NCBI GenBank assembly: GCA_031291955.1
Contig: JARLIA010000008.1
Span: 1-38,752, forward strand
Source of the DNA: Minisyncoccota bacterium
GTDB taxonomy: Bacteria; Patescibacteriota; Minisyncoccia; Moranbacterales; UBA2206
Direction of reading: 5' to 3'
DNA length: 38,752 bases
Shown in pieces: positions 23,147-25,870 of the stretch; positions within the stretch are counted from its first letter, which is position 1; each line of letters begins with the position of its first letter. Under the pieces are notes generated by a model. The model had not been told where the DNA came from. It did no database searches and worked only from the letters and a program-made list of their open reading frames with translations. The translations under genes and the position numbers were made by a program.

Positions 23147-23258
23147 CGGCCCGCCAGATTTTCTCGTTTTATTATTTTCCAACAACCATATGATATAGTT
23201 AAGCTTATATAGTTAGTTGTTGTTGAATATGAAATTGGAAAATCAAGCGGGCGGGCCG
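23147..23258. repeat. MITE-like inverted repeat ending in the first nucleotides of the outer tRNA
   Basis: CGGCCCGCC...GGCGGGCCG arms, then ATTTTC/GAAAAT and CAACAAC/GTTGTTG nested inside. Confidence 0.6.
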
Positions 23259-23471
23259 ACTTAGCTCAGTGGTAGACCTTGCCCGCAATGCTTCGCATAG
23301 CGATGCAGGCGGGGCAACGCTTTTGCCCGCCCGCCTTGACATGCCGGCTTAGCTCAGTGGTAGAGCAACGCTTTTGTAAAGCGAAGGTCGTCAGTTCAAA
23401 TCTGACAGCCGGCTCAAGGCATGTCGGGCGCGGTAAAGCGAAGGTCGTCGGTTCAAATCCGACAGTCGGCT
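23255..23471 (+). pseudogene. tRNA-Thr(TGT) split in three collinear segments (23255-23276, 23314-23325, 23434-23471) surrounding another tRNA gene
   Basis: The segments sum to 72 nt, the length of the inner tRNA; acceptor GCCGACT/AGTCGGC and T-stem GTCGG/CCGAC pair with each other and differ from the inner copy. Confidence 0.75.
23343..23414 (+). tRNA. tRNA-Thr(TGT), complete, inside the split tRNA-Thr
   Basis: Acceptor GCCGGCT/AGCCGGC, anticodon loop TTTGTAA, T-arm GTCAGTTCAAATCTGAC. Confidence 0.93.
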
Positions 23472-23693: not shown

Positions 23694-23966
23694 GCCGTTG
23701 TAGCTCAGTTGGTAGAGCATTTCCATGGTAGATACACTGCCCGCTTTTTGGGAAACTGAAAGGCGAAGCCCGAATAACGGTTAAAGGCCTGGCACAAGGT
23801 TAAGACCGTGGCCCTATTTTGCATGAGGGCCCGAACGACTGACAAGGGGAGCTAAGTCCCGCTCGGCGGGATATGTTCAAGATACAGTCTAATCCTCTAA
23901 TAAGTGCTGAATAAATAGAGGTATAAATGAAGGAAAAGGTCTCCGGTTCAAGCCCGGACAACGGCT
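23694..23966 (+). tRNA. tRNA-Thr(GGT) interrupted by a group I-like intron (exons 23694-23729 and 23930-23966)
   Basis: Acceptor GCCGTTG/CAACGGC, anticodon stem TTTCC/GGAAA, T-arm TCCGGTTCAAGCCCGGA; exons sum to 73 nt. Confidence 0.88.
23730..23929 (+). ncRNA. Group I self-splicing intron (~200 nt, no ORF)
   Basis: 5' exon ends in U, intron ends in G; P1 GGUAG/CUGCC with U.G at the splice site; P7 GACUG (23837-23841)/CAGUC (23885-23889) in AAGAUACAGUCUAAU. Confidence 0.8.
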
Positions 23967-24160: not shown

Positions 24161-25870
24161 TTAGTTATTGAAGTGAGACAAGGGGTTTCCCTCGCGACTT
24201 CTAGCGGGCTTTGCTCGCCGAAGGTCGCTATGGCGACCGAAGGCGGGTGTCGTATAGTGGCAATACGTCGGTCTCCAAAACCGATAACGGGGGTTCGATT
24301 CCCTCCACCCGTGCATGACAGAAGCAGTCTCCTTGACGGAGGCTGTTTTAGTTTCAAACAAAGCAATATTCAGAGTTCGAAGCTTGCCTTTTTGTGCTGT
24401 TTCAACCTTTGCGCTTTCTATGATCCAGCTGAAAGGCTCGGCAAGCGTAAAAGACTGTATTTTCTTGTCTTTTATAGAGATGTTCGAAGATATGATTGAG
24501 ACAATTTCTTTCTTGGTTTCCAAGTCGCCATTTATGAATAATTTGTTGGCACTTTTTATGAAGAGCGAGGCTTGCTCAATCTTCTCAAAAACATTGCAGA
24601 AATTATCAATGGAACTTCGCAGAATTTCTCCAAGCGTTGCTTCTTCATTGCGAAGCTCTGCTAATTTCTTGTTGTAGATGTCTTGCGGAATAGCATTGTC
24701 GATAAACTTCTCAATCAAAGAATCCTGCCGCGTTTTGTTATTATCCAAAAGCATTTTATTTTTCTTTTCAATATCGCGGGCACTTTCCCATTCTTCTTTG
24801 CTGTTGGCTCGTGCGCCTTCAATCATAATATCAATGGCATTCTCATCGAAGTTAAGTTTTTTGAGATGTTTGTCGATTTCTTTTATTAATTCTTCCTCGC
24901 GCAAATATTTCTGCGAACATTTGCTGGCTCCCTTGGATTTTGTGCAATGATAATAGATATGACCCTTCTGCGTTTCGGCGGTTATTTTCAAACCGCATTC
25001 TCCGCAAGTCAGATGTCCGCGAAAAGGAAAATTATGAATATGCCGCCCGACTATGTGCTGGCGCGGATTAAAAACCTCCTCAACCGTATCAAATAATTGC
25101 TTGGAAACAATCGGCGCGTGCGCGCCTCGATAAACTTGATCATTCCAGCGGAAATAGCCGTAGTAAATCGGATTCTTGAGCATTTTATAAATCCCTCCGC
25201 CATAAACCTTTTTCCCATTGCGCGAACGGAAGCCGTTCGTATAGAGCGTGTCGGCTAATGTCGGCAAGGAATATTTGCCGGTGGCATAGAGCTTGAAAGC
25301 ATCTTTAACATACTGCCAGCGTTTCTTGTCGATGTAGATCTTCTTGGTTTTGTAATCCAATAGATAGCCAACTGGGGGAGTGGCCGGATATTCGCCACGG
25401 CGAATTTTCTCGGCTTGTCCACGCTTCACATTCTTGCTCAAGTCGCGAACATATTGATTGGCCATAGAAAACTCAATGCTGGCCATTACAACATTGTCAG
25501 CGGGATTGTAGTCGCGCTCAAAGGTCTTGATTTGCTGAATCGTGCCTTTTTCCAAAAGCCACTGGACAAGTCCGGCATCCATGGAATTTCTGGCCAGTCG
25601 GTCTATTTTCCAACACAAAATGCCGTCATATTTTCCGCTTTTGAATTTTTCCATCATTTGATTGAAAATCGGACGCCCGGGCTGCTTGGCGGATTTGGAT
25701 TCTTGCAAAATCTCCACAATGTTGAGATTTTCCCTTTTCGCGATTTCTTGCATCTCAAAAATTTGCGATTGAATAGAAAGAGCTTGCCGGTCTTCTGATT
25801 CGGTTGATTTTCTGGCATAAATTACGAAACGCATTTTATTGTTTGTTTTTATCTTTTCCATATTCGACAA
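24161..25870 (-). CDS. Large serine recombinase; last ~51 codons of the integrated ORF are antisense to tRNA-Trp and host DNA
   Basis: RFVIYARKSTESEDRQALSIQSQ; CWKIDRLARNSMDAG; recombinase domain; zinc ribbon LTCGECGLKITAETQKGHIYYHCTKSKGASKC. Confidence 0.92.
   Translation of the reverse strand: MSNMEKIKTNNKMRFVIYARKSTESEDRQALSIQSQIFEMQEIAKRENLNIVEILQESKSAKQPGRPIFNQMMEKFKSGKYDGILCWKIDRLARNSMDAGLVQWLLEKGTIQQIKTFERDYNPADNVVMASIEFSMANQYVRDLSKNVKRGQAEKIRRGEYPATPPVGYLLDYKTKKIYIDKKRWQYVKDAFKLYATGKYSLPTLADTLYTNGFRSRNGKKVYGGGIYKMLKNPIYYGYFRWNDQVYRGAHAPIVSKQLFDTVEEVFNPRQHIVGRHIHNFPFRGHLTCGECGLKITAETQKGHIYYHCTKSKGASKCSQKYLREEELIKEIDKHLKKLNFDENAIDIMIEGARANSKEEWESARDIEKKNKMLLDNNKTRQDSLIEKFIDNAIPQDIYNKKLAELRNEEATLGEILRSSIDNFCNVFEKIEQASLFIKSANKLFINGDLETKKEIVSIISSNISIKDKKIQSFTLAEPFSWIIESAKVETAQKGKLRTLNIALFETKTASVKETASVMHGWRESNPRYRFWRPTYCHYTTPAFGRHSDLRRAKPARSREGNPLSHFNN
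24243..24313 (+). tRNA. tRNA-Trp(CCA), integration target
   Basis: CGGT-CTCCAAA-ACCG anticodon arm; GGGGGTTCGATTCCCTC T-arm; acceptor GCGGGTG/CACCCGT with G.T first pair. Confidence 0.88.

Follow-up and report, generated by a model that had tools for sequence, protein, structure and literature searches.

Nested tRNA genes in a Minisyncoccota genome: probable replacement of a resident tRNA-Thr(UGU) gene from within by a palindrome-borne foreign tRNA

The window, a stretch of 38,752 nucleotides from the genome of a Minisyncoccota bacterium, contains at positions 23255-23471 an intact tRNA-Thr(UGU) gene nested in a broken tRNA-Thr(UGU) gene, an arrangement that can be read directly from the sequence. 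It is quite likely that the native tRNA-Thr(UGU) gene was killed by insertion and replaced from within by a foreign tRNA carried on a palindrome.

The outer gene lies on the + strand in three pieces. Its 22-nt 5' piece (23255-23276) comprises the 5' strand of the acceptor stem and the D-arm up to GGTAGA, after which a cargo-less palindrome, a 37-nt hairpin (23277-23313, +), interrupts the D-loop. The 12-nt middle piece (23314-23325, +), which runs from the 3' strand of the D-stem to anticodon position 35 and is identical to the corresponding segment of the inner tRNA, is followed by a second insert of 108 nt (23326-23433) that splits the outer anticodon between positions 35 (G) and 36 (U). This cassette is made up of a 17-nt left arm (23326-23342, +), the intact inner tRNA-Thr(UGU) of 72 nt (23343-23414, +) and a 19-nt right arm (23415-23433, +), the latter delimited from the sequence and a predicted fold in which the arms pair. 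The 38-nt 3' piece of the outer gene (23434-23471, +) extends from anticodon position 36 to the discriminator base. Joined, the three outer pieces amount to exactly 72 nt with the same anticodon as the inner tRNA, and are paired at 7 of 7 acceptor and 5 of 5 T-stem positions. An earlier note, made from the sequence alone, had described this three-piece gene; its pieces, their 72-nt sum, the break between positions 35 and 36 and the 37-nt hairpin were all confirmed by direct reading. From covariation of the acceptor and T-stem pairs, the note had also taken the outer gene for a formerly functional one instead of an echo of the inner copy, a view supported by the compensated pair differences seen in both stems.

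Both ARAGORN and Rfam (70.8 bits) call the inner tRNA only, and the outer gene is undetected by Rfam even at a low threshold. Neither insert has an Rfam intron match at E up to 1, which is a weak test, as the intron-like insert of a neighbouring gene is equally missed. In the predicted RNA fold, the outer acceptor and T domains stay together with the arms paired (z = -6.45), and the inner tRNA sits on a long extension of the outer anticodon arm.

The neighbouring gene, a tRNA-Thr(GGU) at 23694-23966, is interrupted between positions 36 and 37 by an intron-like insert of 200 nt (23730-23929). As in group I introns, T is the last base of its 5' exon and G the last base of the insert; no Rfam intron match is found at E up to 1. 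The window also encodes a large serine recombinase on the - strand (24161-25870), with Resolvase, Recombinase and zinc ribbon domains, the 3' end of whose ORF overlaps tRNA-Trp (24243-24314).

The window's own genome (G000), an assembly of about 1.01 Mb in 15 contigs that is rated 100% complete, holds six nested loci among 45 intact tRNA genes. Besides the Thr(UGU) locus with its three-piece outer gene, these are a Thr(CGU) gene within a Thr(CGU) gene broken at the D-loop and between positions 35 and 36, in the layout of the window (L002, C10:82002-82218); an Arg(UCG) locus with three layers (L163); an Arg(CCU) gene inside the T-loop of a decayed gene; a Gly(CCC) locus; and a Leu(CAA) locus with a D-loop palindrome and an anticodon-loop cassette. 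Every anticodon in this genome is single-copy except CAU (three genes), so that no inner tRNA has a second intact gene for its anticodon in the assembly. A free-standing cassette was not found in the genome, and by eye no other tRNA in it has comparable GC-rich flanking arms. Because random insertion predicts free-standing cassettes, their absence counts against it, unless such copies have been lost.

Other genomes contain the same architecture. The search for further tRNAs with such a cassette, which the earlier note had proposed, yields many loci beyond the five additional ones of G000: in the order, at least 20 genomes have the architecture, a count obtained by reading loci, and it affects at least ten isotypes; clear nested genes were read for Thr, Ala, Pro, Arg, Val, Glu, Gln, Met, Gly, Ser, and Leu. 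Of 133 genomes of the order, 59 have two T-loops spaced more closely than tandem tRNAs permit, though the reversed control shows that some such pairs arise by chance. A stringent nested-T-loop pattern is present in 16 of 245 genomes across the phylum (15 of the 244 besides G000) and in 0 of 245 in the reversed control; nearly all of its loci that were read out are nested genes of one isotype. A locus from another family (L307) has the exact three-piece layout of the window, also for Thr(UGU). The nested layout is not a product of chance, since it recurs in L002 and L307 and the stringent pattern far exceeds its control. Other searches were less informative: the pattern GGYAGACYYGCCCGC, which matched 7 of 133 genomes, was judged too narrow, and a scan across GTDB gave mostly chance matches. 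Among the matches listed in that scan are five true named records, from Ca. Kerfeldbacteria (L185), Ca. Wolfebacteria (L196), Ca. Gottesmanbacteria (L226), and Ca. Omnitrophota (L188 and L201), and L201 carries the CCCCGCACCAAAAA arm family that is found in the window's order too. The automatic candidates L125, L141, L123, L099, L105, L098, L122, and L076 are false or ambiguous and are excluded from the argument, and blind joining of flanks with ARAGORN, too permissive for reading outer anticodons, was not used for that purpose.

This recurrence also bears on whether the locus is an artefact of assembly, to which hardly any credence can be given. G000 is a 15-contig assembly with palindromic repeats, but the same architecture, with precise junctions and shared syntenic states, is found for many isotypes in dozens of independently assembled genomes, on which ground misassembly was rejected.

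Inner and outer isotype agree in every readable case. The intact tRNA nearest to the outer end regions (acceptor, D, and T) shares the isotype of the inner tRNA at 35 of 40 automatic loci; the remaining five are one false candidate and four ambiguous loci that agree by eye, mostly via the anticodon loop. Inner-outer similarity has a median of 30 of 43 positions, against 30.5 of 43 for random same-isotype pairs, and of 50 candidate loci only 3 have an inner tRNA whose closest relative is its own outer gene (at the other 47, a tRNA elsewhere is as close or closer), in a comparison that includes a few false candidates and in which decay of the outer gene depresses similarity somewhat. The window's inner tRNA agrees at 43 of 43 positions with another tRNA of the library, which by eye is the native gene of G020, and at 39 of 43 with its own outer gene. 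As judged from these alignments, the inner tRNA is shown to be foreign and not a copy of the outer one.

The earlier note had considered the break-up of a duplicated tRNA, in which one tRNA gene would have been duplicated locally in tandem and then disrupted through palindromic repeats. Such an origin would account for the D and anticodon arms that the inner and outer tRNAs of the window have in common, but it is very unlikely: the similarity within loci is that of random same-isotype pairs, the window's inner tRNA has its perfect match elsewhere, and nesting within inverted arms is not the outcome expected of tandem duplication. In situ duplication is disfavoured by the inner-outer similarity comparison for most loci.

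A single cassette, arms and tRNA together, is found in two genomes of different genera (G015 and G021) with differences at 2 of about 108 positions (98% identity by eye). The two copies are located inside different tRNA-Thr genes, at one and the same D-loop position, in surroundings without evident similarity. In the genome G184, one arm family occurs both with Ala cargo and with Val cargo. Both observations favour a tRNA-carrying mobile palindrome, another of the possibilities first raised from the window. Identical matches of 34-35 nt to the window's cargo-less D-loop palindrome are dispersed in other genera. With a pattern drawn from the window itself, about 14 copies of the palindrome's core were located in G000; four of these lie in broken tRNA genes, although tRNA genes as a whole account for well under 1% of the genome. 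Across the phylum, the tRNA-bearing cassettes sit in D and anticodon loops, rarely in the T loop. As no insertion polymorphism was seen between near-identical strains, we infer movement from distribution. For the mobilising enzyme, RAYT-like Y1 transposases of the IS200 type are no more than a candidate; a match to the Y1 transposase family is present in 20 of 22 genomes and absent in the nested genome G015. At another site in G000 (L095, contig C7), the Y1 transposase ORF at 1180-1935 contains a long near-perfect in-frame palindrome, and an RT-like ORF without a Pfam match lies nearby on the opposite strand.

The same distribution might be reached by homologous recombination, if nested genes arose a few times and imported DNA recombined through the outer halves into genes of the same isotype, the cassette travelling with the outer gene. 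This would explain the same-isotype rule and the repeated use of the site between positions 35 and 36 without a dedicated enzyme, and the D-loop position shared by the G015 and G021 cassettes is in keeping with it. The outer genes of G015 and G021 differ, however, and the variety of arm sequences, isotypes, and insertion sites points to many independent origins. Palindromes must also move somehow regardless, as the cargo-less arm family is dispersed. Recombination of this kind is regarded as unlikely, although it retains real weight.

Comparison with sister genomes, which the earlier note had called for, is informative about the fate of the outer genes. At the syntenic site in G020, the tRNA-Thr(UGU) gene is uninterrupted, upstream of tRNA-Tyr. 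At the Thr(CGU) locus of G022, the inner tRNA is intact and, with most of the right arm, identical to that of G000, whereas the outer gene has decayed: its 5' half is lost together with the palindrome and the left arm, and its T-arm is overwritten. The outer anticodon stem of Arg(CCG) is broken in one of two genomes of the same genus (G097 and G051), and the outer genes of G230 and G357 are decayed. At L068, L072, L137, L302, and L312, an intact inner tRNA sits in an outer gene that has lost its middle piece, its 5' half, or its stem pairing. At junctions of the CCCCGCACC arm family, 1-4 nt of the anticodon loop are replaced. The window, L002, L042, L154, and L116 retain intact outer stems. 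From the decay in relatives and the loss of anticodon-loop nucleotides at junctions, outer genes generally appear to be dead, and the outer pieces in the window would constitute a pseudogene. The fully paired outer gene of the window is best read as a sign of recent insertion, and its pairing is also compatible with function.

If the outer gene were functional, the locus could be a split or intron-like tRNA, as the earlier note had suggested. RNase P and a 3' tRNase would release the inner tRNA, the arms would hold the outer halves, and a ligase would join them, so that each locus would produce two tRNAs. The loci with intact outer stems fit this scheme, as does the predicted fold of the window with its outer domains together and its arms paired. 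It is nevertheless highly improbable. The outer gene of the window, with two inserts to splice, would need two excisions; outer pieces or stems are lost at the five decayed loci (L137, L302, and L312 among them) while the inner tRNA stays intact; the CCCCGCACC-family junctions have replaced part of the anticodon loop; and the anticodon is already supplied by the inner tRNA. We know of no bacterial splicing enzyme for such tRNA halves.

Several loci contain further remnants. L303 and L313 (G184:C4:24840-24951) comprise the right arm and outer 3' part of a nested Ala(GGC) gene as a tandem repeat, a pattern suggestive of duplication of one outer 3' half or of one sequence serving two layers. L164 (G127:C11:3000-3640) is a row of T-loop matches at a spacing of about 67-69 nt with the common unit GTCTCCCGGAGGGAGAT; the row may consist of decayed tRNA fragments. 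At L069 and L129, other palindromes (TCCCGCTAAGCGGGA; TCCTAAAGTTGAACTTTAGGA) lie within decayed outer tRNA genes, which suggests that dead tRNA genes collect several palindrome families.

Some nested genes have themselves been interrupted. At the Arg(UCG) locus of G000 (L163), the outermost layer (GCGCCCT...AGGGCGC) is broken between positions 35 and 36, the middle layer (GCCCTCG...CGAGGGC) is broken in its D-loop, and the innermost (GCCCCTT...) is intact. In another genus of the same family (G013), a homologous Arg(UCG) locus, likewise adjacent to tRNA-His, is two layers deep, and its counterpart of the middle layer of G000 is intact. Sequence comparison of the two loci suggests an order of events in which each replacement was replaced in turn. 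An Ala(CGC) locus of G041 (L111) also has three layers, and a Thr(GGU) locus of Kerfeldbacteria is apparently three-layered.

Under replacement from within, a GC-rich inverted-repeat element with a foreign, functional tRNA-Thr(UGU) in its loop would have entered the anticodon loop of the resident gene, presumably by transposition directed to a single-stranded hairpin. The related cargo-less palindrome probably reached the D-loop after the gene had been inactivated. Transcription of the inner tRNA presumably starts at the outer promoter, which the two genes would share, and RNase P and 3' tRNases would cut this tRNA out. Across the phylum, cassettes with many isotypes would enter tRNA hairpin loops, and only isotype-matched nestings are found presumably because destruction of a single-copy tRNA gene is survivable only if the cargo replaces the target. 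A surviving cassette would then be indispensable, and a later cassette could strike the replacement, giving rise to two or three layers. More tentatively, these cassettes may be dedicated selfish tRNA-replacing elements, single hairpins of ~110 nt that target their own isotype via loop structure or sequence homology, destroy the target, make the cell dependent on their cargo, spread between genera and phyla, and stack; this is conceivable, but falls short of being probable.

The nested loci resemble several known systems in part. REPs are palindromes of 20-40 nt without cargo, and the REP/RAYT system (REPtron) features short GC-rich imperfect palindromes dispersed in the genome, as are met here (PMC3733652). 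Y1 transposases of matching size are common in the genomes studied here, but the palindrome described here carries a tRNA gene and replaces its target. By eye, a GTAG/CGTC end tag is not consistent at these palindromes; the D-loop insert follows GGTAGA, which is tRNA sequence, and the anticodon-loop inserts follow TTTTG, GGCTTC, or TTTGA. Taken by themselves, the palindromes would count as repeats of a common type. Rickettsia palindromic elements (RPE) also lie inside genes, in the manner of the in-frame palindrome in the Y1 gene at L095, and the host gene of an RPE is still read through (PMC3767692, PMC3733652). At the nested loci, in contrast, the host gene is destroyed, a second gene is supplied, and the outer genes decay in relatives, which sets them apart from RPE by description.

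Islands and phages that target tRNA genes encode an integrase and restore the 3' end of the gene by att-site recombination. They share with the present loci the tRNA gene as target and an insert that supplies what it destroys, but here a whole foreign tRNA gene is contained in a palindrome of ~110 nt. An integrase gene and att direct repeats are absent from this insert of about 110 nt, the only gene of which is the tRNA and the ends of which are inverted. The split, tri-split, and intron-containing tRNAs of archaea (reviewed in PMC4390854) are likewise in pieces, with breaks in the anticodon or D-loop and complementary flanking arms. Unlike these, the outer pieces here decay and the interrupting sequence appears to be itself a functional tRNA; the joined halves are not the sole source of the anticodon, as the inner tRNA supplies an intact one. 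Group I introns occur in the anticodon loops of bacterial tRNAs, and twintrons are layered introns, a parallel both in the site of insertion and in the layer-in-layer history. The window's inserts of 37 and 108 nt, the larger being mostly tRNA, are neither intron-sized nor intron-like, however, and the layers appear to be functional replacements that are not spliced out. Because no family considered fits, this type of locus is rated as new within the open-access literature, as far as searches show; looking there for nested, disrupted, or palindrome-bearing tRNA genes brought up no account of loci like these.

For annotation, the tRNA finders used here report the inner gene only and overlook the broken outer one. 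Reduced genomes keep, in these nested loci, a legible record of essential and mostly single-copy tRNA genes being replaced in series by foreign ones, and the loci illustrate how an element of ~110 nt could become indispensable. They raise the questions of how the palindromes are moved, why insertions strike the hairpin loops of tRNAs, and at what rate core translation genes are exchanged between lineages.
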